Assembly: GCA_019637395.1 (NCBI GenBank)
Contig: JAHBVR010000017.1
Location: 124,001-188,000 of the forward strand
Source of the DNA: Vulcanimicrobiota bacterium
Lineage (GTDB): Bacteria > Vulcanimicrobiota > Xenobia > Xenobiales > JADMJV01
Reading direction: 5' to 3'
Length of the DNA: 64,000 nt
The notes under the pieces were generated by a model that was not told the DNA's origin, did no database searches, and saw nothing but the letters and a program-made list of their open reading frames with translations. The position numbers and the translations under genes are program-made. This document shows positions 20,955-47,667 of the stretch, piece after piece. Each line of letters begins with the position of its first letter. Positions within the stretch are counted from its first letter, which is position 1.

Positions 20955-22355
20955 TTAGCGTAGCGGCCTGAACTGGCCCAGGCCAAAATGCGCGCCATAG
21001 CCGAGCGAAATAGGGCCCGGAACAGGTTTGGCGAAGGTCAACCGAAGATTGTGAATCCCTGAGGTTGGCCTGGGCCGATTCTGTCGCTGCGTTTTGAACT
21101 CACGCAAAGAAATACCGTCGATAGACCGTTCGAGAATCTCCACTGACATCAACAGACCGGATGGTCCGGAATGATTGTCCAATTCCCTGCGTATCTGGTC
21201 TTCCAGGTTCTCTCGACCCGGCTTGAGGTGGCGAGTTTGAACATAGGGGGTTCGCGATTCCCACACCGTGGCTGCGCGAAAGGCCGCAAGGCTTCTCAGT
21301 CGAGATTGGTCGAGCAATTCAACGAATTGGACCTTGAATGAGCGCTGTTGCTCCCTGTGACGGCGGCCGATGGATTGGGTAAAGACCGGCATCGCCTGGC
21401 CCGGGAAGGCTGTGCCCTGGGGAATTTTGCGATACACGATAACTTCACCCAGATGGTTGAGATCTGAAGCCGGCAGCGGAAGAATGTAGGGATGAGCATG
21501 GCCGTTCAGCAGGCCGCTACCATCCTCGTGTTTTCCCGCAAATGCTTCCCATGTTGCAGTGTCTACTCTACCCTTCAGCAGGGACAGAAAATCGGCCCGT
21601 AAGCTCGCTGCGGCAAAAAGACCGTTTGCTCTCCTGGGCCGAACGGGCTTGAGGTAGCTATAGCGAATGGCCACGGGATTAAATTCCAACAGTCTCGACT
21701 TGACAGGAGTCTGAAAGCAGTCAAGCTGGCGATGATAAGTCAGCCAACGCGACCCCGGGGGAGAACTCCATCCTTCTTTTTGCAGGTGCCCGGTTTGAAC
21801 CGTCAATTGGGACCACGTCAGCCCGCTATCGGCTCCCAAAACACGAATAGATTCGCTTTCTTCGTTTTTAGATGTGATGGAGCAGTTGGTCGGAAGGGCC
21901 GATTCCTCGGATGAAGCAGTGAGCTCGGACCAGCTTTCAGCCCGCCCAAAATAGCTGACTCCCCGCAATAGCTCTTCTAGAAGGCGAAACTGAGTCTCTC
22001 CTAGCTCAAGATGAGGCCAACGAAATACGATGACATCCAGAGTCTCCGTCCCCGTTCGCACAAAGCCGTCGAATAGGAGCTGTTTGTCGTTGGGCTGGGC
22101 CTGCGGAAAATATTGCCTGGTGTGAGCGGCGCTGGCTGCAGGTAGATGAAATTCCGGAGGGCTGGAGAGAACGCGCACAAGGTCCAATACCTGCTCTAAG
22201 TCGAACTGGTCTGGATTGCGATAGTAGCTGGCCGCCAGCGCGCGCAGGAGCCTCCACGGAGAAGGTGGCCATTCCGGCTCACCTTCTCGAGGATGGCGGT
22301 CCCAGGGCGTAGCGTGATAACGCCCCGCCAGGAGACGAATGGAAATTTCCAGCAT
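20955..22355 (-). CDS. csb2: Csb2, Cas5-Cas6 fusion subunit of type I-G Cascade
   Basis: 466 residues. The N-terminus, LEISIRLLAGRYHATPWDRHPREGEPEWPPSPWRLLRAL, spans positions 2-40 and is diagnostic of the GSU0054/Csb2 family. The C-terminal part ends with the Gly-rich RAMP loop YGAHFGLGQFRPL. In type I-G systems this protein combines the Cas5 role (holding the crRNA 5' handle) with a Cas6-like role (cutting the repeat hairpin). It is the last gene of the cas3-cas8g-csb1-csb2 operon, 4 bp after csb1. The strong repeat stem and its compensatory variants in the array fit a structure-specific processing enzyme. Confidence 0.92.
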   Translation of the reverse strand: MLEISIRLLAGRYHATPWDRHPREGEPEWPPSPWRLLRALAASYYRNPDQFDLEQVLDLVRVLSSPPEFHLPAASAAHTRQYFPQAQPNDKQLLFDGFVRTGTETLDVIVFRWPHLELGETQFRLLEELLRGVSYFGRAESWSELTASSEESALPTNCSITSKNEESESIRVLGADSGLTWSQLTVQTGHLQKEGWSSPPGSRWLTYHRQLDCFQTPVKSRLLEFNPVAIRYSYLKPVRPRRANGLFAAASLRADFLSLLKGRVDTATWEAFAGKHEDGSGLLNGHAHPYILPLPASDLNHLGEVIVYRKIPQGTAFPGQAMPVFTQSIGRRHREQQRSFKVQFVELLDQSRLRSLAAFRAATVWESRTPYVQTRHLKPGRENLEDQIRRELDNHSGPSGLLMSVEILERSIDGISLREFKTQRQNRPRPTSGIHNLRLTFAKPVPGPISLGYGAHFGLGQFRPLR

Positions 22356-22359
22356 CCCT

Positions 22360-23289
22360 TTAGACTCGCGTTACAGCCGGGTCGGCAAAGTGGGCCTTAC
22401 AACCGGCTACGGTGGCGGCGAGTTCTTGGGCCAGGTCTTCCAGACCCGGAAGGGACCAGTCTTTCGGACGTCTCGCTCGAATGGCCCCCTGAGTTTTCGA
22501 TTCGTCTACTTCGAGGTCGCAGGCCGTCCGGAAGCGCAGCCCGGATTCGAGCACTGCTCGGATTTTGTAGAGAGCCAGTATCACAAGAAAGCGGTTGGCT
22601 TCCTCGGGCAAGCCATAGCTACGCAAGAGATGCAGGTCGAGGTTAAAAAATGCGGTGATCTCGGCTGCTGAATACTCGGTTCGAGAAAAGGGGATATGAC
22701 CCGTTCCCTTTTCCGCTTCCCCTTTGGCACTGATGCGATCAAGCTTTACCCCTCCGCTGGCCACCAAAGCCGCGTCTTTGGCTTCTACGAAGCTTGAAAG
22801 TAAACGAGGTAGGCGCAGCCGTCCATCTTCGAGCTGGGAAAGGAAGACGCCGTGGAGAATGCAGTTGGGATCGAGCCGTAGCAACTCCCGGGCAAAGGCC
22901 ACCACGTTTACCGGGCTGGTCCGGCTATATTGAATCTTGTCGCCTACGCTTTTGCGCAGAGAATCTGGAAAGTAGCCGGAATTGAGCCTGTGCGATTCCT
23001 CGATGGAGGAAGTCTCGTGGCCCGGAGCTGTCGTGACGATATAGGGAATTCCCTGGGCAGCGGAAATCAATTCCCGCTTGGCCGAATCCCAAATCGTCGC
23101 TTCAAGGCGATTGGCCATCGATTGAGCCGATTCCACCAAGACAGCCTCGCCGCTGCCCGGGACCCGATAGCTGGCGGCGCCCAGGTCGGGAAATCCGGTT
23201 GGTTGAAACCGTGTTCCCTGAACAGGTTTGAGTGGAACGTCTAGCAGCAGTCGCGATTCAGTTTTCATCCAGGAAAGATCAATGGACAT
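22360..23289 (-). CDS. csb1: Csb1, Cas7 backbone subunit of type I-G Cascade
   Basis: 309 residues of the GSU0053/Csb1 family. The recognisable N-terminal block (LKPVQGTRFQPTGFPDLGAA, ESAQSMANRLE) is followed by SIEESHRLNSGYF and the core LLRLDPNCILHGVFLSQ. The C-terminal half contains LRSYGLPEEANRFLVILALYKIRAVLESGLRFRTACDL (positions about 223-260). Cas7 proteins polymerise along the crRNA spacer. Its ATG overlaps the cas8g stop by 11 bp, supporting translation from one mRNA. Length and order match other type I-G operons. Confidence 0.92.
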   Translation of the reverse strand: MSIDLSWMKTESRLLLDVPLKPVQGTRFQPTGFPDLGAASYRVPGSGEAVLVESAQSMANRLEATIWDSAKRELISAAQGIPYIVTTAPGHETSSIEESHRLNSGYFPDSLRKSVGDKIQYSRTSPVNVVAFARELLRLDPNCILHGVFLSQLEDGRLRLPRLLSSFVEAKDAALVASGGVKLDRISAKGEAEKGTGHIPFSRTEYSAAEITAFFNLDLHLLRSYGLPEEANRFLVILALYKIRAVLESGLRFRTACDLEVDESKTQGAIRARRPKDWSLPGLEDLAQELAATVAGCKAHFADPAVTRV

Positions 23290-25435
23290 GAGCGTTCTCC
23301 TTTGAATTTTTATCGTCGGCTTTAGGGAAGGCCTGGTTGACCAGTCTCCTCCATAATTCTCTAGAAATCGGGATGGCCAAACTGGCAGCCAGCCTCGGCG
23401 GATCTAGCGAATTGTTGCGCCCTTTTAGTGCTGGTGGCCAGCTTTTGCCGATCAAGAAACGGTCACACTCCATCAGACCATCGGGCTGATTCGCTGCAAG
23501 CCGCTCCACGATGGTAGACGGAGCAAGCCAGTTGCTTGACTGCTCCGTCGTGCCATCCCTTGGCTCGTAAGGACTGAAGGCGACCTTTAGCTTGCAATAA
23601 TCAATGGGCAGCCGGTCGCTTCCTGTGATGGTGGCCTTGGGCAAATCCTGATTGGGCAGACGAACGAGCAGCAAACCGAGTAAATTGGCCTCGATCAGTG
23701 AATCATCCGTCCTCTCGTAGAGAAAATTCTCGATGTCCTCAGGGCGGACCAACGCGGAAGTTCGACTGCCAAACCTCCAGCGCTGCAGTGCCAGGCCGGT
23801 CAGACTGTTGCCGCAGTCCACAGGCTGGTAGATAAACCTGCGCTTTAGCAGTCTTGTAAGGTTCCCGGGTAAGCGATCCTTGCTCCAGATCGCGTTGCGA
23901 CTTTCATCCTGCCAGTTATTTTTAGTAATCGGCTCGATAAACTCGCGCACCTGCTGCAGTCCGCGAACCGCCATGGCCAGGCGAAGCTCGCTGGAATACC
24001 CCGGTGCCGGCCACCAGGCTTCGCTCAAGCGGGGGAGGGGAGCAACATAGAGCTCAGGGGTATTGCGTTGATGAAGCTTGGGCATTTTGCCCAGTTGGCG
24101 GTGAATCGACCCAAGCACTCGAAGAATGGGCATCAGGTCGTTACTGCCACTCCCGCGACAAAGTCCCAAAATAGTGTCGTCTAGTTGGCGAAAGAGACTG
24201 CGAACGGTTGCACCACCGTGCGCTTCGATTTTCCGGCGGTAGCGCCGTAGCCAGGGATCAAGTTCGTTTAGGAGGTCAACCGCTCGCCGATCGCCGCCCC
24301 CGCGAATTCGATAGCGCCCAGCTGGAGTGGCGAAATAGCTCTTGCCATTGCGTACCAGAAAGGTGTAGCGCTCAAAAGCTTGGAATCCGCGCTCTACGCC
24401 CAGGCTGGCAACGGCCCTGGCGAAGTCTACCCCGTTGGCCGCCTGGCGCCCACCGACTTGGGCCCTGCCTTCAGCGAAGACCGCCTTAAGTTCCAACCAG
24501 GAAATCGGGGCACCCCAGGTTGGTAACCACATTTCGCAGCGCGCCTTATCGGCTTCGTTACTGGAGATGGCTGAATGACCGCCCATGCTAGGGTCGACAG
24601 TGAATGGCAGACTGAAGCCTTGACTGTCATCGCCCAAGCGCCGAGTCGCGGCTGCGGAAAAAACCATTGAGCCTTCAAGAGCCAACACAAAGTCCCAGGG
24701 GTTCACGTTGGGGTTGCCGTCAAAGCCTGAAGTCGTGTTCGGTCCACCAGCAGAGCCTGGCGCGTACTGGCCAATTGCCGTTTTTTCCAGCCCTTTGCAG
24801 CTTTCGTCGAAAAGTGCCTGTCGGATGAGGATTTCCACTCGGCCGCGCTGCTTGGAGGAACATAGAAGGAGCTCGACCAGATTCTGGGCGTAATTGCTGG
24901 ACAGATCGAGTCTTCCGTCGTTTCCTCCTGTGCCGAGCAGCGGGACCATTTCCAAGCGATCCTCGTCGCCAATCACGCAAGCTGCGTCCAGCCATTCCAA
25001 GGCTTCGGGGCTGGTCAAGTTGCTCCGCAGAGCGCGCATCAACCGGGGTTTAGCAATCTTGGGTTCGGGTTTGTCTCTTAGTCCCAGGTGCTCTAGCTCT
25101 TTGCGACATTCCTGAAGTGTCTTACGATAGGCCTCAAATCGTGGAGTTTCCTCGGCGGCAATCCGCTCAAGAGCTTTCTTGGCGGACTTGTCGTTGGGGA
25201 AGTAGCCGCTGCCTCCATTCCAAGGCGAAGTGATTGGAGTGGGCTGATATTCGTTCAGTAGCCAATCCGAGAGCTGTTCCTTGGACAAGTTTGTGGTCAA
25301 AATGGCCAGATCATCCCGCCAGGAAAGCATAGCCTTGGGATCCTTTTGCTTCGTCACCAATCGAAAAACACCCAGTGCCTTCAAGTATGAGGCTAGAGGC
25401 CGAACCCGGCAGCCGCCCAACTCCAGTTCATTCAT
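23279..25435 (-). CDS. csx17: Cas8g (Csx17), large subunit of type I-G Cascade
   Basis: 718 residues. The opening LGGCRVRPLASYLKALGVFRLV is the Csx17 signature. Other family-like blocks are SPWNGGSGYFPND, LLGTGGNDGRLDLSSNYAQNL, and the region around GFDGNPNVNPWDFVLALEGS. Large subunits recognise the PAM and stabilise the R-loop. ATG 25435 overlaps the cas3 stop as ATGA. Its place between cas3 and csb1 and its length are normal for type I-G. Confidence 0.92.
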   Translation of the reverse strand: MNELELGGCRVRPLASYLKALGVFRLVTKQKDPKAMLSWRDDLAILTTNLSKEQLSDWLLNEYQPTPITSPWNGGSGYFPNDKSAKKALERIAAEETPRFEAYRKTLQECRKELEHLGLRDKPEPKIAKPRLMRALRSNLTSPEALEWLDAACVIGDEDRLEMVPLLGTGGNDGRLDLSSNYAQNLVELLLCSSKQRGRVEILIRQALFDESCKGLEKTAIGQYAPGSAGGPNTTSGFDGNPNVNPWDFVLALEGSMVFSAAATRRLGDDSQGFSLPFTVDPSMGGHSAISSNEADKARCEMWLPTWGAPISWLELKAVFAEGRAQVGGRQAANGVDFARAVASLGVERGFQAFERYTFLVRNGKSYFATPAGRYRIRGGGDRRAVDLLNELDPWLRRYRRKIEAHGGATVRSLFRQLDDTILGLCRGSGSNDLMPILRVLGSIHRQLGKMPKLHQRNTPELYVAPLPRLSEAWWPAPGYSSELRLAMAVRGLQQVREFIEPITKNNWQDESRNAIWSKDRLPGNLTRLLKRRFIYQPVDCGNSLTGLALQRWRFGSRTSALVRPEDIENFLYERTDDSLIEANLLGLLLVRLPNQDLPKATITGSDRLPIDYCKLKVAFSPYEPRDGTTEQSSNWLAPSTIVERLAANQPDGLMECDRFLIGKSWPPALKGRNNSLDPPRLAASLAIPISRELWRRLVNQAFPKADDKNSKENAHVH

Positions 25436-27768
25436 ACGGCCACCACTTGTTTCTGTTGGCTCTCCGCCTTACTGGCTCGCACGTCAGCACTGCGAATGAG
25501 AGATTCTAAGAAGCCCAGTCGGAAAACGCCATAGTCTGGATTCTCCACCAGGCCATAGAGCGTTCTGACCCAACTCAGGCGGTGGCCGAGCCCCAAGACC
25601 TCCAGGTCCAGCGTGGTCTCGGCGATAGACAGGCCACCCCAGGTGACCGCTGGTAGCTGGTCCCCCGTCTTTACTCCCCGAATAGTGTGGCCTTTGGAAT
25701 GCTCGACTTGCAATTGTTCTTGTGGAATGGGGCGTACTGAGAATCGAATTTTCCCGTGGTGGACTGCTACCAGGAAAACAACCAGCGGATTGACCCCAGT
25801 CTGGAGTGCGGCCAGAGCGCTAGCGAATTCGTGTCTGAACCCTTTCCGGTAATGTTTTCCACCCATCTTACTCTTGCCTAAAAGCGGAAGCGGCTTCAAA
25901 TCGCCTGCCGGCAAACGATACATCGTCCCTTGGAAAACATCGTGTGCCTTGCCGTAGTCATGCCAAAGACAGGCCAGTAGCAGGGAGTCATTGGGTAGCT
26001 CCAGGGATTGCAGGCTGGCGAGCAATGCTTGCATTTCTCGGTGGACATTGAGGGTATGCTCTTCGAGCGTGAGGTCGTAGCCGCCCAGACGATCAGAATC
26101 GTAGCCTTTGGCGCGGTCAGGTTTAGCTACAGGCTGGACGTTACCTTTGTATTCCTTACCGAATCCGAGGTCGCAGTCGTAACCGCCGGAGCTGGCCTTC
26201 AGGAGGTACAGTTGACCGGCCTTCAAGCGATTACGGTCCACGGTTTCCCAGAGTTCTTCACCATAGTTCCAACGAAAGGCCTGACGGTCACCCCCCAGAA
26301 ACGTCCTCAAGTCCGAAAGCGGCACATTACAAAGTTCCTCGCGAAGCGGCAGGCCTTCGGTATTCGTCCAGCCTTCGTCGCAGCGCCTCCAGAAAACTTG
26401 GGCATCCCGAGTATTGGGCTCGCGAATGTAGCGGCTGATATCGATGTCCTCGCCGGCTAAATCGCTGGTTGTCTCAAAAAGCTCTCGTAGGTCCTTATGT
26501 CGTAACACCACGTCGCTGTCTGACTCATCGCCAAACCCATTGATCTGTCGTAGACAAGCTGGAGAAGCGTCAGGAATCGTGTGTATTATAGAGGCACAGG
26601 CCTCCAGTTGTTCTTGGTCATAGGGAAGTAGAGCATCTTTCAAGTCGATCCAGAAGGCTAAACCCCCTTCGGGCTCTTGACCGTCCCGATTGCATCGCCC
26701 CAACCTCTGGACCATCGAGGAAAAAGGACATAGTTCGCTGATCAGCAGCCTGGCCGACAGGTCGACTCCGGCCTCCACTACCTGGGTTGAAACAATCACA
26801 GCTCCACCAGAACCTGGATTCTTCTGAAGTTCGGTTAGAGCGGCTTCCTTGGCTGCCCGCTCGGGAGGACGGAACCTGGAGTGGAGGAGTAGCAGGGCGG
26901 GCGCTTCCGGTTTTCCTTTCAGGTGTTTCTGCAGAGCGCGATAGACCTCCACTGCTCTGTCTACCTGATTGACGATGATGAGACTCAGCGAGTCGGCGGA
27001 ATGATGCCCAAGGGCAAACTCTGCCACGCGCTTGGAATAGTCTTTTTTGGTCTCCTTGTTGAGCTCAAATGGTGCTTTTTGCAGGCTTTTGGGGGCGTTC
27101 ATTCGACGAGCCAATGAGGAATAGCTCAGATCTGCGGCGGACAATTCCTGAAGAGTTGAAGGTGCTGACCGATCAACGGTGGCCAGCCAATCCGGTTCTA
27201 GTGTGGCGCTCATCCACAGAGTCCGGGTGCTTCCGTAAACCTGTTCTCGTTCGCGGAAGGCCTGAAGCTGGACCGAAGTCGCTCGAGCCACGCCCATAAT
27301 TTGCACCTCGTCAAAAACCCACTGAGCATCGTTGTGCAAAAGCCCGAAGGGAACTGACCATCGATACCGGCTCATAGCGTAGCCCCGGTTCAAAGCGCGG
27401 GATAGCAGCATGTCCTGGGTTCCTACCAGGATGGCTGGCTCGGCCGGCGCCAGTTCCCACTCTTCCTCCAGCACGCCTCCCATCAGTTCGTAGACCTTGT
27501 AGCGCTCTGAAAGACCAAGTTTCTTGACCCAGCCCCGGGCATTGTCCACCGTCTGTTTGACCAGAACTCGCATTGGTAGACAAAAGACCAGACGAGTCGC
27601 CCCGGATTTTCTATGCTCGCGCGAGTAAAGCCAGGAGAGAATCACCGCAGCGGTCTTCCCCGCACCGGTAGGTACTCGCAGCACCTCAGGCCAATCCTCT
27701 GCAAGCCGTTGCTGGTAAGGATACGGCGGATGCCCGGTGGCAGACTGAAAAAATTGGGAATAGTTCAA
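25432..27768 (-). CDS. cas3: Cas3 helicase with C-terminal HD nuclease (type I-G)
   Basis: 778 residues from TTG 27768. The DExH helicase comes first: YPYQQRLAEDW, Walker A VPTGAGKT (about 32-39), DEVQ box in WVFDEVQIMG, motif III MSATL, and motif VI QRLGRCNRDG. The HD nuclease is C-terminal (about 570-760): EEHTLNVH, WHDYGKAHDVF and VAVHHGK. This helicase-then-HD order is typical of type I-G. An upstream frame to 27915 exists, but GGAGG at 27774-27778 sits 5 nt before the TTG, and the extra residues come from a perfect hairpin and a regulatory palindrome, so they are not coding. First gene of the effector operon. Confidence 0.92.
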   Translation of the reverse strand: MNYSQFFQSATGHPPYPYQQRLAEDWPEVLRVPTGAGKTAAVILSWLYSREHRKSGATRLVFCLPMRVLVKQTVDNARGWVKKLGLSERYKVYELMGGVLEEEWELAPAEPAILVGTQDMLLSRALNRGYAMSRYRWSVPFGLLHNDAQWVFDEVQIMGVARATSVQLQAFREREQVYGSTRTLWMSATLEPDWLATVDRSAPSTLQELSAADLSYSSLARRMNAPKSLQKAPFELNKETKKDYSKRVAEFALGHHSADSLSLIIVNQVDRAVEVYRALQKHLKGKPEAPALLLLHSRFRPPERAAKEAALTELQKNPGSGGAVIVSTQVVEAGVDLSARLLISELCPFSSMVQRLGRCNRDGQEPEGGLAFWIDLKDALLPYDQEQLEACASIIHTIPDASPACLRQINGFGDESDSDVVLRHKDLRELFETTSDLAGEDIDISRYIREPNTRDAQVFWRRCDEGWTNTEGLPLREELCNVPLSDLRTFLGGDRQAFRWNYGEELWETVDRNRLKAGQLYLLKASSGGYDCDLGFGKEYKGNVQPVAKPDRAKGYDSDRLGGYDLTLEEHTLNVHREMQALLASLQSLELPNDSLLLACLWHDYGKAHDVFQGTMYRLPAGDLKPLPLLGKSKMGGKHYRKGFRHEFASALAALQTGVNPLVVFLVAVHHGKIRFSVRPIPQEQLQVEHSKGHTIRGVKTGDQLPAVTWGGLSIAETTLDLEVLGLGHRLSWVRTLYGLVENPDYGVFRLGFLESLIRSADVRASKAESQQKQVVAV

Positions 27769-27773
27769 AACGT

Positions 27774-27778
27774 CCTCC
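27774..27778 (-). promoter_or_regulatory. Ribosome binding site that decides the cas3 start
   Basis: GGAGG read on the minus strand, 5 nt before TTG 27768. addA starts the same way (GGAGGAG then TTG 36525). It rules against the longer cas3 frame that begins at 27915. Confidence 0.75.
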
Positions 27779-27860
27779 GCTGAGCCTGCGATTTCGCACG
27801 GCTGAGAAGCTGTTCCTTCATCCACCGGAACAACTCTTGCAACCAATTTAGCCGCTGACC

Positions 27861-27877
27861 GCGACAAAAACGGTCGC
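27861..27877. promoter_or_regulatory. Regulon operator, site 7 (cas effector operon)
   Basis: GCGACAAAAACGGTCGC, matching GCGACA-N5-TGTCGC with one mismatch. It is 93 bp upstream of the cas3 TTG. It overlaps the base of the hairpin at 27876-27921 by two bases, and on the minus strand its centre is the T-run that follows that hairpin. Confidence 0.65.
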
Positions 27878-27921
27878 AGCCGTGGGTGGTGGGAAGAAAT
27901 CTTCCCACCACCCACGGCTGC
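27876..27921 (-). terminator. Perfect 22-bp hairpin upstream of cas3, terminator-like
   Basis: Arms 27876-27897 and 27900-27921 are exact reverse complements separated by AA. The stem is GC-rich with a Gly-codon-like GGGTGGTGGG core. On the minus strand it is followed after five bases by TTTTT, inside operator site 7. It could end transcripts coming from the small gene or the pseudo-repeat upstream, or act as an attenuator for the cas operon. A role as a palindromic insertion relic is not excluded. Confidence 0.5.
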
Positions 27922-27973
27922 AAAAGTGGACCGGAGTTGGACAAAGAACTCGTTCTAAGCCCACCTATGCACA

Positions 27974-27998
27974 GCTTCAATTGGGCCGGCCCACAAAC
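27974..27998 (-). repeat. Degenerate CRISPR repeat upstream of cas3
   Basis: On the minus strand this reads GTTTGTGGGCCGGC then CCAATTGAAGC. The last 14 bases (27974-27987) are identical to the 3' end of the distal repeats of the array, and the rest matches the loop and right stem with a few differences and one gap. A second weak match to the repeat 5' end (CCGGTCCACTTT, from 27934 downward) begins exactly 39 nt later; array spacers are 35-40 nt. The arrangement is pseudo-repeat, pseudo-spacer, partial pseudo-repeat, in the same direction as cas3. Confidence 0.6.
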
Positions 27999-28031: not shown

Positions 28032-28427
28032 TTACGCTGACTTTCGCGTCTTCAGGGCGTCAAGTCTCGATGAAAACGACTTGGAAAACCTGTTCCAGTC
28101 ACGTAAAGGAATCTCGGTTGTATTTGTAGTTTTTCCGGATTGATCGACGAAGGTAAGGACGGGATCAGAGCCGCTTCGACTGCGCATAATATGGACGGTC
28201 TTGCCACCACGTGAACGTCTCCCCAGGATAGAGGCCGGCGATGCGTTGAGGTCGCTTTCTTGAAGCCATTGGTTAAAGCTGGCACGGGTAAACGAAGCGA
28301 ATACCGTCGCTCTGCCAGATTGATGCACAGCTCTAAGCCAGACAGTTTCGTTGACTTCCGCGATTTCTAAGAAAAATGGACGACCAGAAGAGATGCCTCT
28401 GCCGGCCAGGGTGGTTGTTTTGCTCAT
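28032..28427 (-). CDS. Small unknown protein upstream of the cas operon
   Basis: 131 residues from ATG 28427, with AAGGGA 8-10 nt upstream. The N-terminus is Thr/Gly-rich; the middle has WLRAVHQSGRATVFASFTRASF and a basic Ser/Arg patch (ILGRRSRGGKT); the C-terminus is basic (RLDALKTRKSA). The composition suggests nucleic-acid binding, but no family is recognised. It is the last gene before the effector operon in the same direction, 263 bp ahead of cas3, with the pseudo-repeat and hairpin between. It is not a standard type I-G gene. Confidence 0.6.
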   Translation of the reverse strand: MSKTTTLAGRGISSGRPFFLEIAEVNETVWLRAVHQSGRATVFASFTRASFNQWLQESDLNASPASILGRRSRGGKTVHIMRSRSGSDPVLTFVDQSGKTTNTTEIPLRDWNRFSKSFSSRLDALKTRKSA

Positions 28428-28679
28428 AATTGTTCCCTTCAAGAGGAGTTTGCTCTCAGGGTAGAACTAAAACGTTATAGAGGTTCAAGCCATACCTTGA
28501 ATCCGGGTCACGACTTTGCAGAGTCAGTGGCCCTTTTTGCTTTTAATATATTATCATGATTTGTCAAGCCAAGTGAAGCCAACCTATACACAGAACGTTG
28601 TTGGCTAAAAGAAGTCCAATTCCCTGTTACGGCTTTGTCTTCCGGAGGGCTTCCCAATGATGAGTCAGAACGAGGGCCA

Positions 28680-29756: not shown

Positions 29757-29758
29757 GA

Positions 29759-33456: not shown

Positions 33457-33480
33457 GGTGTCTCCACAATACTGGTGAGT

Positions 33481-33497
33481 GCGACCATTTTTGTCGT
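33481..33497. promoter_or_regulatory. Regulon operator, site 3 (WYL gene)
   Basis: GCGACCATTTTTGTCGT, two mismatches from GCGACA-N5-TGTCGC. It lies between the addA stop and the WYL ATG, 25 bp upstream of the latter. It is the weakest of the seven sites, as often seen for an autoregulatory operator. Confidence 0.55.
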
Positions 33498-33504
33498 TTG
33501 ATTT

Positions 33505-36500: not shown

Positions 36501-36525
36501 GGCGTCTGGCCTCGGCGTCGTTCAA
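33505..36525 (-). CDS. addA: AddA-like helicase-nuclease
   Basis: 1006 residues. The UvrD-type SF1A helicase has Walker A ASAGSGKT (22-29), AAVTFTRKAAAEL (motif Ia), LYVDEFQDTDPLQ (motif II), FLVGDPKQSIYRFR (motif III), TSFRSN (motif IV) and LLYVATTRAREM (motif VI). A C-terminal PD-(D/E)XK nuclease follows: GDLIHRLLEY (His), LGIIDLLL (Asp) and DLIDYKTDRK (Asp-x-Lys). AddAB resects double-strand ends and, like RecBCD, can supply fragments for spacer capture. TTG 36525 is used, after GGAGGAG; it overlaps the addB stop (TTGA). Confidence 0.88.
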   Translation of the reverse strand: MNDAEARRRIVTDLESNFLVEASAGSGKTHCLVARLVAGVTRGRYPIERIAAVTFTRKAAAELSARLRLELEKSASPALARFPEMFVGTVHSFCGQLLREYPVQSGISPAFREIEQREDETLQRRVLRSHLEDAEGRRLVRLLAEYGASWLELLPALYGLSEQSDLDYLQPPAERPCSETIWRAVENFSALLQPQLPACAGEPTCKLLLLGQRLLQQVRLSSRESARDLIKLLSDWETNPKPVKRYWGEKRALQNAALEAVTPLVDEFRSTVVAPALAGWRAHLYAQCLPFLLRVRQACQEERRQLGLSNFQDLLRKCARLLRNHPEVVERLQERFQHLYVDEFQDTDPLQAEIFLRLAADSSSLSNWLEGRPRPASLFLVGDPKQSIYRFRRADMRMYYRVRQSMGAVLELTTSFRSNASICAWVNRVFAELLPARASQEQAPFAPLTPGHGCATSPAIYRLTLDSQRHTELPALEARQLAAFISASPYTPGDFLILTSRIGELAIYQKALQELGIPYRSSGEPRPLEAHGRSFLALLRSLAHPGDSIALTSVLRGKFFGHSDTELFLHRQAGGELRLGLGETGAEELMPSLAILENLSARIRSLSPGAAAHLVMAELGLTWLDGYDELEAIADELTERGEAGLTLLQGVVELLEADQIQPRNLHSGQRDAVRIMNLHKAKGLEAKVVFLAAPAQGLPLQVDHALTPEGAGVFCLRRYRKLLAHPPGWHQLAEQELAYLSAERLRLLYVATTRAREMLVVSGWSGSHGAANCPWLPLAPFLSECPELQIPPPSDKYRRVWPEMEAGDFQAARDTRRAAREHCRQASWKRSAVTTNNKTSGFRSTLPLDASEGQGRDWGDLIHRLLEYTARHPDCSRDQLHQLARWFSLETPQLAPFLEAALDVIERVQATEFWSCVRQARQRLVEIPFGRRQDDHLILGIIDLLLSQPDGWDLIDYKTDRKRLHELLVAYSQQIGEYAHSWNTITGESVRSAGIFGVREGAYGTL

Positions 36526-39368
36526 AACTCCTCCAACAGTTGAAGGCGGCTCTTCAGTATGGCGTTGCCGGGATTCTCCAGCTTGCGCAGGGAGCGCGAG
36601 TCGGTATGTCCTTCGCAGATCGATTGGTAATCGCAGAAGGTGCAGTCTTTTTCGCGGCTTTCCGTCTGGAGAAAGGCTCCGCTTTGCAGCGGCGCCAGCA
36701 CTCCTCGCATCACTCTCTGTAAAGCGGCGCGGTCCGGCCTGTCAAAGTGGACCCAGCGTTGGGCGGCGTTCGGCCGTACGAAGTAGTACGAACTCTGCAC
36801 CACCGGTCCGACCAGCTTTTCCACCACCATTGCGTAGAGGGCGTGTTGCAGCAGTCGGCCCCGGTCGTAAATCGTGTTGGGGGAGATACGCAGGCTCCTG
36901 CCGGTTTTGTAGTCGACCACTCCATAGCCGCCCGGTAGCCGGTCCACGCGGTCGATGCGTCCGGACAGGGCGAAGGAGGTGCCATCCGGCCAGATGAGCT
37001 CTACCGGCTCCGAGGAGGCGAGTGGCTCCAGCGGTTCCTCGCCCATCCCGAAGGGCAATTCCAGAGCCACCGGTGAGCGCTCGGGATGTTCCAGTTCCAG
37101 GCTGAGGAAATATTCTAGATCTTTGAGGAGCTCTTCCGCCTCACTGGCCTCCACGGCCGCCGAAAGAGCGGGCCTGAGCGGTCGCAATTGATCGAGACGT
37201 TGCTTCAGCAGTTCAGCCAGGAGCTGGCGGTCCTCCATTTCGAGCGGCTTTCTACCTTGCCCGCGCAACTGGCGATGGTAATCCGCCAGAATATCGTGAA
37301 TGACGATTCCCCGCAGAGATGGATCCAGCCATACGTCCAGGTCCGGCAAACCGGGGGCGCCGCGCGGTAAATCAAGGCAGACTTCCAAAAAAATCTGAAA
37401 AGGACAACCGGCCAGAGAGGCCAGCTGGCTGACCGAGACCGGCAGCCGGGTCTGTCTCGGGTCAAAGAGGCCGGCCGCCTCCGGCACGAAACCATCGAAG
37501 GAGGTGAAATTGTCGCTGGCTCGCGCTGCTTCAGCGGCTGTCCCCTGGACCAGGCGCGGGTAGAATTTCTGGAGAGCGTGAGGGGTCAGTTTGGGCTGAA
37601 GAGCGCTTCTGGCATGGGCGCCAAGCCAATCCTGGAGCTCCTTGAAATTGGTGAGAGCGGGGTGATGCCGGCGCGCGCATTCGAAGAAGATCCAGGAGGG
37701 AATCTGCTCACTTTCACCGCCTCGGTCGCGCAGCGAATAGGAAAGCGTCAGTTGCCCGGCGGCCGTTTCCAGGCGCTCGTCCAATTGAAAGCGGATGAAT
37801 TCCGGCAGATCCCGGGAAAGCCTGAGAGCGGGGTGCAGAGCAGCCCGTTCCTGGTCGTCGAGAACGCAGTTTTCGGCCTGCGTGGTCAGCCAGCGACCTT
37901 CTTCGAGGCCGATGAGAAAGAGGTGCTGCCGCCCGGACAGGCCTAAATTGGCGGGCCGGGTTACATGCAGGTGGCCGGGGCGGGGGCGGCTGGAATTGCA
38001 GATCAGGCTATGCAGTTGCTGGCGCACTTGATGAATGGCCCGGTCCAACGGCCACCAGGCGCCGGGCAGGGTCTTCAAGTCCTCGAGCGCCGTCAGAATG
38101 GCCTGGCAGGTCACTGCTTCGCCGGCGTTGCGGGAGGCGAAATCCCGTTTCAAGAGTTTCTGCAGTCCGCTCAGCCAGGCCTTGACCGGAACCTCGCCTT
38201 GCGGGTTGGGGGCGGGCCACTCTCGCCACCAGCTTTCCAGGCCGGCCGCCAGAGCCAGGCAGTGTTCCGCCGATTCCTGTTCGCCCCGTTGCCGGTAGAC
38301 TTCTTGCAGGGTTTGCAGTCGCTGCGCATAGCTCTCGCGACCCCAGTCGATACGGGCCGACTGGAGCAGGCGGGCGGAGGTATAACGGTTGGGCGGCAGG
38401 CGGATGAGATCAGACAGAAGCAGCTCGCGTAGATGGTAGGCGGTGTGGCCGTGTTCCACCCAGGTAAGCAGGCCGTTTAAGGCCTGCCCGGCGCGGTTGC
38501 ACCGGGCAGGCAGGCCAGCCTCGAAAGTGTAGGGGAAATCCGCCGCCTGGAGCCGTTCCTGAATGAGGGGAGCCTCTTCCGGTAGCGCGCAGATCTCGAC
38601 CTGGTCCAGCGGGATCGCCCCCTCTTCGAGGCGCCGCAGGATTTCGTCGATTTCCTGGGGGCGCCGCGGCGCGCAGAAAAATTGGGGAGCTTTTCCTTTT
38701 GCGGCGATAGGTTTGCGCGGCGGCCAGAAGGCGGGAGGAGTGCGGTCGGTCGCTTCCGGGAGCCAGTGAAGGCCCGGCAGGCGCTCAATCAGGGCCTGTT
38801 CTAAAGGGGCCCAGCAGCAATAGGGGTAGGGGAGGATGATGTCTTGCTCTTCCACTTGTGGGTAGCTCAGTTCGGCGGCCAGAATGTCGGCCCGGTCCGC
38901 CCATTTTTGGCTGGCAAGGTGTTCTTCGTAGGCCAGAAACAGGCGAGTCAATTCGTTGATTTTGGAGCTTCTGGGAAGAATGTCCAGGTGCCGGGCCCGG
39001 AGTCCGGCCAGGCGGAATTCGCTCAGGGTCTCCCAGAGAATTTGGGCCATTCCCGGTTGCAGGATAAGTGGACGAAAGTGGCTTTCGCCTTCGTCGGGAA
39101 GGTCGACCAACAGATTTTGCAGCAGGCCGGGGCCCAGGGCGTCCGGGCATGGGTAGATTCCGCGCGACAGGAGGCCGGGCGCACTGGCTTCCAGGGCCAG
39201 TTGGAAGGGGGTGGTGAAACGTAAATTCACCCAATTGCAACCCTCGTGAAGCAGCCTTTCTCCCAGGGTCCAGCCGATGGCGGGCGAGGGCAGGATGATC
39301 CATTTGGCGGTCAACGGCTGCTCCCGGCACAGGCGTTTCAGTTGCTCTACGAATGGGTCAGCCACCAC
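36522..39368 (-). CDS. addB: AddB-like nuclease subunit with iron-sulfur cysteines
   Basis: 948 residues. The C-terminal nuclease domain contains LAGCPFQIFLEVC, GIVIHDILADYH, LSGRIDRVDRLPGGYGVVDYKTG and the triplet C909-x2-C912-x5-C918 (DCTFCDYQSIC). The spacing matches the 4Fe-4S staple of AddB. The N-terminal half is helicase-like but lacks a Walker A; LPSPAIGWTLGERLL stands where AddB has G-x-GKT, so this subunit is probably not an ATPase. It is the first gene of addB-addA-WYL-SNase and is divergent from cas4-1, sharing a 125-bp region with two regulon palindromes. Confidence 0.85.
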   Translation of the reverse strand: MVADPFVEQLKRLCREQPLTAKWIILPSPAIGWTLGERLLHEGCNWVNLRFTTPFQLALEASAPGLLSRGIYPCPDALGPGLLQNLLVDLPDEGESHFRPLILQPGMAQILWETLSEFRLAGLRARHLDILPRSSKINELTRLFLAYEEHLASQKWADRADILAAELSYPQVEEQDIILPYPYCCWAPLEQALIERLPGLHWLPEATDRTPPAFWPPRKPIAAKGKAPQFFCAPRRPQEIDEILRRLEEGAIPLDQVEICALPEEAPLIQERLQAADFPYTFEAGLPARCNRAGQALNGLLTWVEHGHTAYHLRELLLSDLIRLPPNRYTSARLLQSARIDWGRESYAQRLQTLQEVYRQRGEQESAEHCLALAAGLESWWREWPAPNPQGEVPVKAWLSGLQKLLKRDFASRNAGEAVTCQAILTALEDLKTLPGAWWPLDRAIHQVRQQLHSLICNSSRPRPGHLHVTRPANLGLSGRQHLFLIGLEEGRWLTTQAENCVLDDQERAALHPALRLSRDLPEFIRFQLDERLETAAGQLTLSYSLRDRGGESEQIPSWIFFECARRHHPALTNFKELQDWLGAHARSALQPKLTPHALQKFYPRLVQGTAAEAARASDNFTSFDGFVPEAAGLFDPRQTRLPVSVSQLASLAGCPFQIFLEVCLDLPRGAPGLPDLDVWLDPSLRGIVIHDILADYHRQLRGQGRKPLEMEDRQLLAELLKQRLDQLRPLRPALSAAVEASEAEELLKDLEYFLSLELEHPERSPVALELPFGMGEEPLEPLASSEPVELIWPDGTSFALSGRIDRVDRLPGGYGVVDYKTGRSLRISPNTIYDRGRLLQHALYAMVVEKLVGPVVQSSYYFVRPNAAQRWVHFDRPDRAALQRVMRGVLAPLQSGAFLQTESREKDCTFCDYQSICEGHTDSRSLRKLENPGNAILKSRLQLLEEF

Positions 39369-39493: not shown

Positions 39494-41149
39494 GTGATCC
39501 AACTTGAACTTGAATCCATTCCGGCGCGGATCGTCAATCAGTACACTTATTGTCCGCGCCTGGCCTATCTGGAATGGGTCCAGAAGGAATGGGCCGATAA
39601 TCTTTATACCCAAGAAGGCTCTTGGGCCCACCGGGTGGTCGATGCGGGCAACGGAAAGATTCCCGACTCCGAAGAGCCGGTTCGCACCCGCTCTCTGGAA
39701 CTGGCTGCTCCGCGCCTGGGCCTGGTCGGTAAATTGGACATGGTGGAGCTGGGTCGAGGCGAGGCGGAACCGGTTGAGTATAAGCGCGGGCGGCGGCCGA
39801 AAAGCGGGGAAGTGGCTGAAGACTGGGATCTTATGCAGCTGGCGGCGCAGGCCCTGCTCTTGCGCGAGAACGGCTGGAAATGTGAGCGAGGGTTCTTCTA
39901 TTTCTGTGAAAGCCGGGAAAAAGTTTCCGTAGAATTGGACGACCAGTTGCTGGCCCGGGTGGAGGAAACCCTGGCCGAGATGCGGACTCGTTTTGAGCAG
40001 CCCCTCGCCCCGGAGCCGCTGGTGGCCAGCCAGAAGTGCGGCGGATGTTCGCTGGTGGGAATTTGCCTTCCGGATGAAACCTGGCGCTTAAAGCAGGGAG
40101 CTAAGCCTGATAAGACCCGCCGCTTGCTGGCTCCCAAAGACGACGCTCTGCCCCTTTATCTGACCACCAACGGGCTGAGCGTGGGAATCAACGGGGAGCT
40201 GCTGGAGATTCGCGAGAAAGGCAAAGCGATCGACCACAAGCGCTTTCTGGATATTTCCCATCTCTGCTTGATGGGTAATATTCAGGTCTCCACCCAGGCG
40301 GTGCGGCACCTGTCGGCGCAGGGCATTCCGATTTGCTATTTTAGCTATGGAGGCTGGTTCAGCGCGATGACTCAGGGGATGAGCCATCGCAACGTGGAGC
40401 TGCGGCGGGCGCAATACCGGGCCGCCTTTGACCCGGTCGCCTGTCTTGGATTGGCCCGGCGCTTTGTTTCCACCAAGATTCGCAATGGGCGCACTTTTCT
40501 GCGGCGGAATAATCGCAGCTTTCCCGACTCCGGCCTGAAAGAGCTGAAACGGCTGGCCCTGGCGGCCGAAAGGGCGGAAAATTTGCCCACTTTGTTGGGA
40601 TTGGAAGGAATGGCGGCGCGCATTTACTTTCAGGCTCTGCCGGGAGCGGTGAAGAACCGTGCTTTTTTGGAAGGGGGAGGGTTCGACAGCGGAGCCCGCA
40701 ATCGCCGCCCTCCCAAGGATCCGATGAACGCGCTACTGTCGCTGGCCTACTCTCTGCTGACCAAGGAGATGAGCGTGATCAGCCACGCCATTGGCTTCGA
40801 TCCTTTTCAGGGCTTCTATCACCAGTCTCGTTACGGCAAGCCGGCGCTGGCGCTGGACGTGATGGAGGAATTCCGCGTACTGATCGCCGACTCGGTAGTG
40901 CTGAGCGTGATTAACAACCAGATGGTCACGCTCTCGGATTTCGACTGTTACCAGCACGGGGTGGTGCTGAACCAGGCCGGACGCCGGGCGCTGATCGGAG
41001 CCTTCGAGAAGCGGATGGAGGAAAAGGTCACCCATCCCTGGTTTGATTATCGGCTCACCTATCGGCGCATCCTCTATGTGCAACTCCGCCTGCTGGCCCG
41101 TTACCTGTGCGGAGAGATCGCCGAGTTCCCGCCCTTTGTGACCCGATGA
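39494..41149 (+). CDS. cas4-cas1: Cas4-Cas1 fusion (spacer acquisition)
   Basis: 551 residues. The Cas4 part (about 1-200) has four cysteines, C20 and C182-x2-C185-x5-C191, for an iron-sulfur cluster, and nuclease residues in LVGKLDMVEL and PVEYKRGR. The Cas1 part (about 215-551) has Glu371 in LGLEGMAARIYF, His443 in FYHQSRYGKP and Asp455 in LALDVMEEF. Such fusions are typical of type I-G; Cas4 trims and selects PAM-containing prespacers and Cas1 integrates them. GTG 39494 follows GGGAGG by 5 nt. It overlaps cas2 by 4 bp (ATGA). Confidence 0.95.
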   Translation: MIQLELESIPARIVNQYTYCPRLAYLEWVQKEWADNLYTQEGSWAHRVVDAGNGKIPDSEEPVRTRSLELAAPRLGLVGKLDMVELGRGEAEPVEYKRGRRPKSGEVAEDWDLMQLAAQALLLRENGWKCERGFFYFCESREKVSVELDDQLLARVEETLAEMRTRFEQPLAPEPLVASQKCGGCSLVGICLPDETWRLKQGAKPDKTRRLLAPKDDALPLYLTTNGLSVGINGELLEIREKGKAIDHKRFLDISHLCLMGNIQVSTQAVRHLSAQGIPICYFSYGGWFSAMTQGMSHRNVELRRAQYRAAFDPVACLGLARRFVSTKIRNGRTFLRRNNRSFPDSGLKELKRLALAAERAENLPTLLGLEGMAARIYFQALPGAVKNRAFLEGGGFDSGARNRRPPKDPMNALLSLAYSLLTKEMSVISHAIGFDPFQGFYHQSRYGKPALALDVMEEFRVLIADSVVLSVINNQMVTLSDFDCYQHGVVLNQAGRRALIGAFEKRMEEKVTHPWFDYRLTYRRILYVQLRLLARYLCGEIAEFPPFVTR

Positions 41150-41433
41150 GACGCGATTTCATCGTGACTTACGATGTTTCGAACGATAAGCGGTTGCGCC
41201 TGGTCTTCAAGGCCATGCTGGGTTTCGGGGAACATATACAGTTCTCGGTGTTCCGCTGCGCCCTGAGCAAAATGGAGCGGCAGAAGATGATCGAAAAACT
41301 GACCGGACTGATCCACCAGCGGGAAGATCAGGTGCTCATTATCGAACTAGGCACCCTGCCCGAACGCAGATCGCGCATCCGGCCTCTCGGCAGGGCCTAC
41401 CGGCCCTGTGATCCGGGAGCCCAGGTGTTCTGA
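41146..41433 (+). CDS. cas2: Cas2
   Basis: 95 residues beginning MRRDFIVTYDVSNDKRLRLV, with the ferredoxin-like fold and the conserved Asp of YDVSNDKR. It continues FGEHIQFSVFRCALS and ends after EDQVLIIELGTLPERR and YRPCDPGAQVF. Cas2 dimers bridge two Cas1 dimers for spacer integration. ATG 41146 overlaps the cas4-1 stop. It is the last gene before the terminator, leader and array. Confidence 0.95.
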   Translation: MRRDFIVTYDVSNDKRLRLVFKAMLGFGEHIQFSVFRCALSKMERQKMIEKLTGLIHQREDQVLIIELGTLPERRSRIRPLGRAYRPCDPGAQVF

Positions 41434-41463
41434 TTCTTTGGCAATTGAATTTGTCTCTACCTT

Positions 41464-41521
41464 CGCGAGCGCGCAGGTCATGGCCCTGACCCCTGGGCGC
41501 GCTCGCGGGGGTTTCTTTTTC
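41464..41521 (+). terminator. Intrinsic terminator after cas2
   Basis: Perfect 11-bp arms CGCGAGCGCGC (41464-41474) and GCGCGCTCGCG (41497-41507). The interior can pair further (GGTCA/TGACC). GGGGTTTCTTTTT follows. It separates the cas4-1-cas2 transcript from the array leader, so the array needs its own promoter. Confidence 0.7.
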
Positions 41522-41643
41522 AGGGGTTGCGAGCGGGCTTCTGAGGGGGATTCAAGTTTCGGGGGGTTGGTGGGGGAGGTGAAGTGACCCGCTCGCAGAA
41601 TGCCCTCAGGATGCCGGAGCCACCGTGCTTTGCGAGGGGGGCG
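41522..41643 (+). promoter_or_regulatory. CRISPR leader with interleaved inverted repeats
   Basis: 122 bp between the terminator and the first repeat; it is G-rich, unlike AT-rich leaders. Two inverted repeats interleave: TGCGAGCGGG (41528-41537) with CCCGCTCGCA (41588-41597), and CTGAGGG (41541-41547) with CCCTCAG (41603-41609). The partners are 60 and 62 bp apart. Leader polarity is inferred from adjacency to cas2, the degenerate repeats at the far end and the ATTGAAGT/C repeat 3' end. No clear -10/-35 is seen. Confidence 0.6.
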
Positions 41644-44600
41644 CCGATCCGCGGTTTCTGACCGCGGCCCAATTGAAGTGACACTGATTCTCATCTTCGT
41701 CTCCCAATGGACCCCAGCCGATCCGCGGTTTCTGACCGCGGCCCAATTGAAGTAGGATATGGACCTTTTCGATCAGCGGGTCGCCGTCGGGCCGATCCGC
41801 GGTTTCTGACCGCGGCCCAATTGAAGTGGAGAGCTGGCTTTGCTATGCGGCCAATATTTCGCACCCGATCCGCGGTTTCTGACCGCGGCCCAATTGAAGT
41901 CCGAGACACCGCCCAAAGAATCGTTGACCTCCTGCGCCGATCCGCGGTTTCTGACCGCGGCCCAATTGAAGTCTCCGCGGATAGGGGAGTGGTGATGGCC
42001 AACTTGTGGCCGATCCGCGGTTTCTGACCGCGGCCCAATTGAAGTTTCTTCGGTCAACGCCCTGCCGGTCGGGGTGACCAGCCGATCCGCGGTTTCTGAC
42101 CGCGGCCCAATTGAAGTCAAGACGCCATCAAGATCGCGGGAAAGATGTGCCCGACCGATCCGCGGTTTCTGACCGCGGCCCAATTGAAGTTCAAGACCTT
42201 CGGTTACCAGGCGATTTCTGACGAAGCCGATCCGCGGTTTCTGACCGCGGCCCAATTGAAGTCAGTCTCGACCTGGCGCCCGGCCGGCCACCAGGTGGGC
42301 GTCCGATCCGCGGTTTCTGACCGCGGCCCAATTGAAGTCGAAGGCGCCTGCCCAGGCCCGGCGGTTGCGCCGGTTGCCGATCCGCGGTTTCTGACCGCGG
42401 CCCAATTGAAGTCTGGCAGTTGTGTCCGGGGCGCTGACGGGGTTGTTACCCGATCCGCGGTTTCTGACCGCGGCCCAATTGAAGTCCGAGCCTTTGCGTC
42501 GAAGGAGTAGCCTCCGGCGGTCTCCGATCCGCGGTTTCTGACCGCGGCCCAATTGAAGTGACGTATCCAACAAGCCGTACGATGAGGTGCGCCAGCCGAT
42601 CCGCGGTTTCTGACCGCGGCCCAATTGAAGTAAGGTCATTCACGGGCAGAAGTATACGACCAGTGCCGCCGATCCGCGGTTTCTGACCGCGGCCCAATTG
42701 AAGTAACGCTCAATACCAGCAGCGCCCAGTGCCCAAAGAAGCCGATCCGCGGTTTCTGACCGCGGCCCAATTGAAGTACCTCAACCGTGACATGCTTGCC
42801 GGCGTTGAAGCTGCCGATCCGCGGTTTCTGACCGCGGCCCAATTGAAGTAAAAACTCTTCCTCGGTCCACGATTGCGCCTGGAAGTCCGATCCGCGGTTT
42901 CTGACCGCGGCCCAATTGAAGTAATAACTGCCCCACAGTTTCCACATATATGAGGGAACCGATCCGCGGTTTCTGACCGCGGCCCAATTGAAGTTTGCGC
43001 GCAAAACCAACCTGCCCCAGAAGACGATCACCGATCCGCGGTTTCTGACCGCGGCCCAATTGAAGTCACCATTCCCGCCCATTTCTCCTCACTCAGATGG
43101 ATACCGATCCGCGGTTTCTGACCGCGGCCCAATTGAAGTTTCCAGGGACTGCCGAAGCGGGGGAAGATACTCGGCCAGCCGATCCGCGGTTTCTGACCGC
43201 GGCCCAATTGAAGTTAGCTCATCTGAGCCCGGGCCTCGGTGCGCCCGTTACCGATCCGCGGTTTCTGACCGCGGCCCAATTGAAGTAAGGAGATCAAAAA
43301 GCTCTACGGCGCGGCCTGGGATGCCGATCCGCGGTTTCTGACCGCGGCCCAATTGAAGTAGAGCTATTTTATTGCTGACGTGGCTGGGAAGGCGACCGAT
43401 CCGCGGTTTCTGACCGCGGCCCAATTGAAGTATCGAAATGTTTGTTCCGGCTTTAATTCTCGCGGCACCGATCCGCGGTTTCTGACCGCGGCCCAATTGA
43501 AGTTTGCTTTGCTTCCAGGTTGGGGCTCTGTGCTTTCCCGCCGATCCGCGGTTTCTGACCGCGGCCCAATTGAAGTATCAAGGGTGCCGCTCTCTGTCTC
43601 GCTGAAGCCGACCGCCGATCCGCGGTTTCTGACCGCGGCCCAATTGAAGTCTCATGGAGGACAGGAGGTTTGCAATGCCGTCGAGCCCCGATCCGCGGTT
43701 TCTGACCGCGGCCCAATTGAAGTTAGCCCTTTGGCAGAACCTCCCTCCAGGCCTTGCCTGCCGATCCGCGGTTTCTGACCGCGGCCCAATTGAAGTGAAA
43801 AAGCACAGCGTATCAAGTATGGCCTCGACCAGCCGATCCGCGGTTTCTGACCGCGGCCCAATTGAAGTACCGTTTTTGTGTCGAAGGAGTAGCCTCCGGC
43901 GGTCTCCCGATCCGCGGTTTCTGACCGCGGCCCAATTGAAGTACGGAGTCTGATAACAGTCTTGGATTTGCTTGGTCCGACCGATCCGCGGTTTCTGACC
44001 GCGGCCCAATTGAAGTAAACGGACAGTTCCCCGACAGGCCGAGGGTCCAAGCCGATCCGCGGTTTCTGACCGCGGCCCAATTGAAGTCACAAATACACAA
44101 GCGTAACAGCCCCTGCATCACTAACCGATCCGCGGTTTCTGACCGCGGCCCAATTGAAGTTAGTATGGCTTTTTTCGTTTTTACCGATCAAAAACCCCGA
44201 TCCGCGGTTTCTGACCGCGGCCCAATTGAAGTCCTATAGAGGGGGGTTATGATCTTTTTCGATTCCGCTTCCGATCCGCGGTTTCTGACCGCGGCCCAAT
44301 TGAAGTGACTGGATGGGAGGGAGATACCGATCCACCTGCGAGGCCGATCCGCGGTTTCTGACCGCGGCCCAATTGAAGTTAATTCGAATTACAGCGAACA
44401 CCAAGATAAGCAATTCAGTCCAGCGCGGCGGAGGACCTTCCGATCCGCGGTTTCTGACCGCGGCCCAATTGAAGCATCACCATGAAGCAGAGTTGCACGT
44501 CGGCTTGGTCCCGCCGATCCGCGGTTTCTGACCGCGGCCCAATTGAAGCAACGTCGCTGACGGGAGCGGACTCCGGCATTGCCTCACCGATCCGCGGTTT

Positions 44601-44915
44601 CTGACCGCGGCCCAATTGAAGCGCCAATTGATCGTGCAGTTGGCTGCCCCCACCGAGGCCGATCCGCGGTTTCTGACCGCGGCCCAATTGAAGCCGCGTG
44701 ACGCCCACCGAGGCCACCTTCGGCAGCAAACTCCGATCCGCACTTTCTGAGTGCGGCCCAATTGAAGCCGGGAGACCCTGGCTATACGTCCATCACCCTG
44801 GTAGGCCGATCCGCACTTTCTGAGTGCGGCCCAATTGAAGCCGCTGTGTCAAATCCGCTATGGGTCCGGCCGTACGCCGCCGATCCGCACTTTCTGAGTG
44901 CGGCCTAATTGAAGC
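41644..44915 (+). CRISPR. Type I-G CRISPR array, 45 repeats and 44 spacers
   Basis: The repeat is 36 bp: CCGATCCGCGGTTTCTGA then CCGCGGCCCAATTGAAGT. It folds as a 7-bp stem CCGCGGT/ACCGCGG with loop TTCTG. Repeats 1-38 (41644 to 44379) end in T. Repeats 39-45 (from 44440) end in C. The last three (44733, 44806, 44880) carry stem CCGCACT/AGTGCGG with both arms changed together, and repeat 45 has one more C-to-T change. Spacers are 35-40 nt, except spacer 38 (44380-44439), which is 60 nt. Two spacers (42486-42523, 43869-43906) share 26 identical bases. The distal end is the older end. Confidence 0.98.
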
Positions 44916-47653: not shown

Positions 47654-47667
47654 GGCCCAATTAAAGT
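47654..47667 (+). repeat. Isolated 3' half of a CRISPR-like repeat
   Basis: GGCCCAATTAAAGT matches the last 14 bases of the array repeat with one difference; the 5' part of the repeat is not recognisable. It is 2.7 kb beyond the array and immediately beside the 120-bp inverted-repeat segment. It could be an array relic or chance. Confidence 0.35.

Follow-up and report, generated by a model that had tools for sequence, protein, structure and literature searches.

A compensated stem switch within one type I-G CRISPR array and a likely CreR-like element upstream of cas3

Introduction

The window (the whole stretch of 64,000 nucleotides analysed here) contains a CRISPR array in which the last three repeats carry a hairpin stem different from that of all the others and still fully paired. 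How did two versions of one hairpin come to lie in a single array, and is it the RNA hairpin that is kept by selection? A first-pass annotation of this DNA had described a switch in the last three repeats from CCGCGGT/ACCGCGG to CCGCACT/AGTGCGG, and our analysis bears this out: the coordinates and the two compensated pairs were right. The locus belongs to type I-G, described as the least well understood of the type I subtypes (PMC9638904).

A type I-G locus with three blocks of repeats

All six proteins expected of a type I-G system were matched by PADLOC in the window (Table 1). The effector genes cas3-csx17-csb1-csb2 occupy 20955-27915 on the minus strand, and cas4-cas1, cas2 and the array lie at 39494-44915 on the plus strand. 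The true start of cas3 is probably near 27765-27780, judging from homologues, most of which align from about residue 50 onward. Pfam gave no match for Csb2 or Csx17, and the Csb2 profile PF09609 found nothing in the window's own genome and equally nothing in control genomes; the Csb2 assignment is that of PADLOC, PF09609 being silent in the controls too. Two further groups of genes adjoin these modules. Divergent from the cas3 operon, with a common upstream region, is a gene pair on the plus strand (28635-30442) encoding an AAA ATPase and a DUF4276 protein (PADLOC HEC-01A/HEC-01B), and between the effector and adaptation modules the minus strand (32521-39368) encodes a WYL-domain regulator and two large ORFs that by eye are helicase/nuclease-like.

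Table 1 Features of the type I-G locus and its surroundings (positions in the window).
Feature	Position	Strand	Basis or remark
csb2 (Cas5-Cas6 fusion, Cas56g), expected repeat-cutting enzyme	20955..22355	-	PADLOC PDLC01778 3e-105
csb1 (Cas7g)	22360..23289	-	Pfam and PADLOC
csx17 (Cas8g)	23279..25435	-	PADLOC
cas3 (Cas3g)	25432..27915	-	PADLOC and homologue alignment
20-bp hairpin then T-run, where a second repeat is expected	27875..27922	-	
Pseudo-spacer after psi-R1	27938..27973	-	36 nt, length by analogy
psi-R1, ectopic 3' half-repeat upstream of cas3	27974..27989	-	ends in GGCCCAATTGAAGC (27974-27987)
131-aa ORF, between the putative cas3 promoter and cas3	28032..28427	-	no PADLOC family; no Pfam match above cut-off
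Site partly matching the pseudo-spacer	28561..28595	-	15 of first 20 bases (at 28592); TTC PAM
cas4-cas1 fusion (Cas1g)	39494..41149	+	PADLOC PDLC01747 1.4e-169; Pfam
cas2 (Cas2g)	41146..41433	+	PADLOC 1.3e-24; Pfam
Leader, cas2 to repeat 1	41434..41643	+	position only
Repeats 1-38	41644..44379	+	probably newer stem, terminal T; all letter-identical
Spacer 38, at the T/C boundary	44380..44439	+	60 nt; other 43 spacers 35-40 nt
Repeats 39-42	44440..44694	+	probably newer CCGCGGT stem, terminal C; otherwise as repeats 1-38
Repeat 43	44733..44768	+	most likely older CCGCACT/AGTGCGG stem, terminal C
Repeat 44	44806..44841	+	most likely older CCGCACT/AGTGCGG stem, terminal C
Repeat 45, last	44880..44915	+	most likely older stem, terminal C, additional C27T

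The array comprises 45 repeats of 36 nt (41644-44915). Repeats 43-45 differ from repeats 1-38 at positions 10, 11, 19 and 20 (GG...CC to AC...GT) and at position 36. The four stem changes fall in pairs 5 and 6 counted from the base of the stem, where 10:20 passes from G-C to A-U and 11:19 from G-C to C-G with pairing kept, and both pairs 1 and 2, nearest the cut, and the CCCA-ATTGAAG part are the same before and after the switch. Both forms fit the I-G plan of a 36-nt repeat with a 7-bp CC...GG stem and a 12-nt 3' part that ends in an 8-nt handle, and they fold to the same hairpin (-13.6 kcal/mol for the form of repeats 1-38 and -12.1 kcal/mol for the variant form). By our own arithmetic, four random substitutions would give two compensated stem pairs with a chance of about 4e-5 (21 of 58,905 placements within 36 nt hit two of the seven pairs on both sides, multiplied by 1/9 for complementarity).

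The loop and flanks had been taken as constant, which is true of the loop and the 5' flank; the last base, however, is T in repeats 1-38 and C in repeats 39-45. Since this base changes at a different place from the stem, the array consists of three blocks rather than two. Apart from four bases of the stem, and from the additional C27T of repeat 45, repeats 39-42 and repeats 43-45 are identical. We found no intermediate repeats in the array, and the 42/43 boundary is abrupt.

Within the array, spacers 12 (42486-42523) and 31 (43869-43906) have a 26-nt stretch in common and different first parts, as if they had been acquired from two related mobile elements; part of the common stretch had no exact match in viral_contigs. 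Some 2.7 kb past the array, the plus strand carries GGCCCAATTAAAGT (47654-47667), which agrees with the repeat end at 13 of 14 bases and may be a chance match; we set this degenerate half-repeat aside as a candidate for an old array end.

We searched for the CCGCACT form elsewhere, as the first-pass annotation had proposed. In the window's own genome, the variant repeat was found (with up to 3 mismatches) only in its three known copies, and a stem-tolerant pattern run against 198 genomes returned only the 45 repeats of the window. Exact patterns, which demanded an exact TTTCTGA and an exact 3' part, detected no CCGCACT-type repeat in genome_contigs or viral_contigs. The absence of this form from all collections searched neither proves nor refutes the reading that it was meant to check. 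Further matches to GGCCCAATTGAAG were present in C19 of the window's own genome, C600 of G002 and C73 of G004.

Covariation among type I-G relatives

We found relatives of the system with the Cas4-Cas1 protein, for which 18 of 149 genomes from the phylum (the window's own genome counted) gave matches; matches from a plasmid search with the same protein were all below 60% identity and were left unused. Arrays were recognised by our own script in 80 genome_contigs loci and 14 fetched larger stretches, yielding 66 I-G loci including the window, with 68 arrays and 1659 repeats; several of the 80 loci and 4 of the 14 stretches, their arrays unrecognised, stand outside the 66. The 68 arrays derive from 69 calls, the second call in L056 being the same array twice, and L085 and L056 carry masked bases.

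The repeats are built alike: after a brief 5' flank comes a 7-bp CC...GG stem enclosing a loop of some 5-6 nt, and then a 3' part of 12 nt, CCCCATTGAAGC for instance; one repeat of the set departs from the CC/GG stem ends, with CT/AG. Standard pairs fill 459 of the 462 stem cells in the 66 distinct consensuses (449 Watson-Crick, 10 G-U, 3 neither), or 99.4% compared with 74.1% (maximum 77.7%) when the letters of the 3' arm are shuffled within columns, relatedness being uncorrected in this comparison. Pair 1 is C-G in 66 of 66 consensuses and pair 2 in 65 of 66. Pairs 3-7 each occur in three or four Watson-Crick types, and it is here that the switch in the window falls. G-U accounts for 10 of the 13 cells that are not Watson-Crick (8 of 11 when the three L127 arrays are counted once), and its dominance among these exceptions hints at pairing at the level of RNA.

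Only the window, 1 of 66 loci, showed a switch on both sides of the stem within one array. Other clean variants within arrays were one-sided, giving a G-U pair in L056 (two repeats) and L090 (one repeat) and a broken stem in one repeat each of L071, L082 and L141; variants in L080, L107 and L121 were left out, as their mismatches in the 5' flank suggest that the repeat is truncated or shifted. Stem variants that recur within an array stay paired (three repeats in the window, two in L056), although the numbers are small. In L127, two-sided differences were also found from one array of the locus to another (stems ATGTCT/AGACGT and ATTTCT/AGAAGT), and in L126, L110, L085 and L060 they set the array repeats apart from ectopic second repeats.

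The first-pass annotation had taken the switch as strong evidence that the RNA hairpin is selected. Taken alone, the single switch would also fit a templated copy or constraint on a DNA palindrome; selection on the hairpin is nevertheless supported, mainly by the comparison of 66 loci. This principle is already known for CRISPR repeats. Kunin et al. 2007 (PMC1896005) and CRISPRmap (PMC3783184) likewise describe compensated stem substitutions and G-U pairs, read as evidence of an RNA hairpin. In the portions of these two sources available to us the compensation is between arrays or organisms, whereas here two pairs are compensated within one array, which makes the fully compensated switch a rare and clean case.

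Candidate repeat processing by Csb2

In another type I-G system, Csb2 binds the repeat hairpin and cuts 4 nt downstream of it, leaving an 8-nt handle (PMC9638904). The repeats of the window match that layout, with 36 nt, a 7-bp stem, four bases (CCCA) and then the 8-nt ATTGAAGC/T handle. The study concerns another system's repeat, and two stem versions in one array are not the subject of the text available from it. This in-vitro work, together with the recognisable I-G genes of the window, supports Csb2 as the repeat-cutting enzyme here. Its C-terminal His456 is kept in 37 of 38 aligned sequences and occupies roughly the position of the catalytic His503 published for the other system, its putative counterpart by position. 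Both repeat forms are likely to be cut by Csb2.

Origin of the stem switch

Integration in type I-G is leader-directed in other systems (PMC10504553), and among the 68 arrays of our set the last repeat is deviant in 18 and the first repeat in 4. On these two grounds, repeats 43-45, being leader-distal, are most likely the oldest. C is the majority last base in nearly all relatives' arrays, including those of two genus relatives whose arrays were read, so that C would be ancestral and T derived. We rejected an inversion of the hairpin, as the loop is unchanged.

We consider it probable that the array is a record of three successive forms of its own repeat and that the stem switched by a compensated change that was copied forward. 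New units would arise at the leader end by copying of the first repeat, and the last three repeats would thus retain the oldest form. Two adjacent stem pairs would have been swapped for other complementary pairs in the line of descent of today's first repeat; the last base would have changed from C to T later, and each change would have been copied into all newer units. The stem sequence would be free to vary while pairing stayed fixed, as the repeat RNA must form the 7-bp hairpin bound by Csb2. The three blocks, the kept pairing, the covariation across the family and its fixed and free positions are observed; we infer in this account the copying order, the cleavage of both forms by Csb2 and the fate of intermediate units, which would have been lost or never made. 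Because intermediates are absent and the G-C to C-G exchange has no wobble path, a stepwise change needs either a transient broken pair or lost units.

This abrupt boundary would also be expected if the last three units, or all units on the leader side of them, had come by recombination through near-identical repeats from a related strain's sister array; the stem would then have diverged elsewhere than in the present array. Two-sided differences between arrays of one locus do exist, as in L127. However, blocks 39-42 and 43-45 agree exactly in terminal C, loop and 5' flank, stems and loops differ in genus relatives whose Cas4-Cas1 is 64% identical, and a donor array was not found in the window's own genome or in the collections searched. 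The near-identity of the two blocks, set against the divergence of the genus relatives, is easier to reconcile with change in a single lineage than with an older array of foreign origin, and we regard recombination as the unlikely course, albeit one that deserves some weight. The hint of a replaced or recombined older array in the first-pass annotation therefore stands with regard to age, repeats 43-45 being older by position; a foreign replacement is unneeded, as they have the terminal C, loop and flanks in common with repeats 39-42.

Constraint might alternatively act on a DNA palindrome used in integration by Cas1-Cas2 rather than on an RNA hairpin. Inverted repeats play a part in integration in other subtypes. 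The stems are 97% Watson-Crick (449/462), and the switch preserves a palindrome equally well. We nonetheless consider this reading improbable, given the prevalence of G-U among the exceptions (10/13, or 8/11 with the L127 arrays counted once) and the published binding and cleavage of the hairpin by Csb2 of another I-G system (PMC9638904).

A one-step change, in which one arm of the hairpin templated the other in a single-stranded repeat during integration or gap filling, would yield compensation without selection. It would account for two adjacent bases altered in each arm with no intermediate and for the pair that has no wobble path, but no second case occurred among the other arrays of the 66 loci and the status of G-U as the commonest exception to Watson-Crick pairing would be left unexplained, which makes it a distinctly improbable course. 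Finally, an assembly or sequencing artefact can be dismissed, since the same four changes are found in three units with different spacers, which excludes a read error, on a contig of 200 kb in a genome that is 97.9% complete.

The reading that we favour, successive forms of one repeat copied forward, has a parallel in the CRISPRDetect paper (PMC4869251), where variants of distal units are copied into a run of repeats. The decay described in the available part of that paper is leader-distal, whereas the distal variant of the window is undecayed and its stem fully paired.

Spacer 38 and the terminal base

The unusually long spacer 38 sits between repeats 38 and 39, precisely where the terminal base switches, a coincidence with a chance of 1 in 44. 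In the whole set, 1577 of 1591 spacers are 33-43 nt long, and masked bases occur in the loci of several other exceptions. We recognised no repeat remnant in spacer 38 (local alignment was no better than with shuffles), and a piece of it had no exact match in viral_contigs.

Spacer 38 may be the product of an off-register integration or consist of fused spacers, and it is possible that such an integration caused the switch from C to T. A spacer-side cut one base inside the repeat would give the new leader-proximal repeat a last base from the incoming DNA, which would then be passed on. With type I-G Cas4/1 in vitro, only 60-70% of spacer-side integrations of a processed prespacer were at the correct site (PMC10504553). 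In L063, L069 and L096, the last base likewise changes block by block, being C, G or T, and C is the oldest of these. In L048 the newest 15 units (repeats 1-15) are shifted by about 3 nt, with a new end GAC and spacers ending in GTC, an apparent change of integration register that was copied forward. Boundary spacers in L063, L069, L096 and L048 were not clearly abnormal.

A candidate CreR-like element upstream of cas3

The search for further repeat copies in the genome turned up the half-repeat psi-R1 (Table 1). The pseudo-spacer that follows it partly matches a site overlapping predicted promoters at 28577-28550 and 28572-28545; the designation of this site as the cas3 promoter rests on consensus hexamers. 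The match of the window's pseudo-spacer ranks 1 of 1080 start positions. Of 39 loci, 8 have such a half-repeat, with up to 2 mismatches, in the 500 nt upstream of cas3, compared with 12 of 1118 control windows; the other 31 have none. In 9 of 12 elements, the true start ranks 1 or 2 among 658-1080 starts (with ties in L092 and L126), a proportion that is not a frequency among I-G loci, as the 12 were chosen by a match to the repeat tail (that of G003 by position, with 3 mismatches). The pseudo-spacers of L107, L096 and L108 had no convincing target (ranks 26, 307 and 528). The PAM beside the matched sites of such elements is TTN.

In the genus relative G003, a homologue of the 131-aa ORF with 43% identity lies upstream of cas3, and the order is that of the window, namely the ORF, a diverged half-repeat, a promoter-region site (rank 2) and a hairpin, with different letters in both guide and target. 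A paired second repeat follows 38-40 nt on in L136, L137, L126, L060, L085 and L110; the arrangement of two flanking diverged repeats is absent in the window and G003, which have a long hairpin instead.

CreR cas-regulating RNAs are reportedly the subject of work by Liu et al. in 2023. The element of the window is likely to be a CreR-like guide in type I-G. It resembles CreR as described in PMC12737573 and PMC13131331 in having a diverged repeat adjoining cas genes and a guide that partly matches a cas promoter. It differs in subtype, CreR being known from types I-B, I-E and V-A in the available part of a 2026 review (PMC13131331), and in the hairpin that replaces the second repeat. The part of the literature that we searched contained no report of CreR or of ectopic repeats in type I-G.

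A promoter upstream of the 131-aa ORF and cas3 would drive a transcript carrying the lone diverged repeat, the pseudo-spacer and a terminator-like hairpin. Csb2 would free the guide from this transcript, and the guide would return the I-G effector to its own promoter; guide and target would have changed together in the genus relative. We lean, somewhat cautiously, towards a wider reading in which type I-G controls itself by a CreR-like guide, the array hairpin drifts by compensated pairs and one off-register integration, that of spacer 38, reset the terminal base of all later repeats.

Discussion

Our analysis suggests that leader-distal repeats can keep ancestral repeat forms and do not just decay. 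The array would also serve as a natural experiment, offering two hairpins of the same shape and different sequence presumably to one Csb2, and would thereby separate shape from sequence in recognition. If the proposed role of the element upstream of cas3 is true, RNA-guided autoregulation extends to type I-G.
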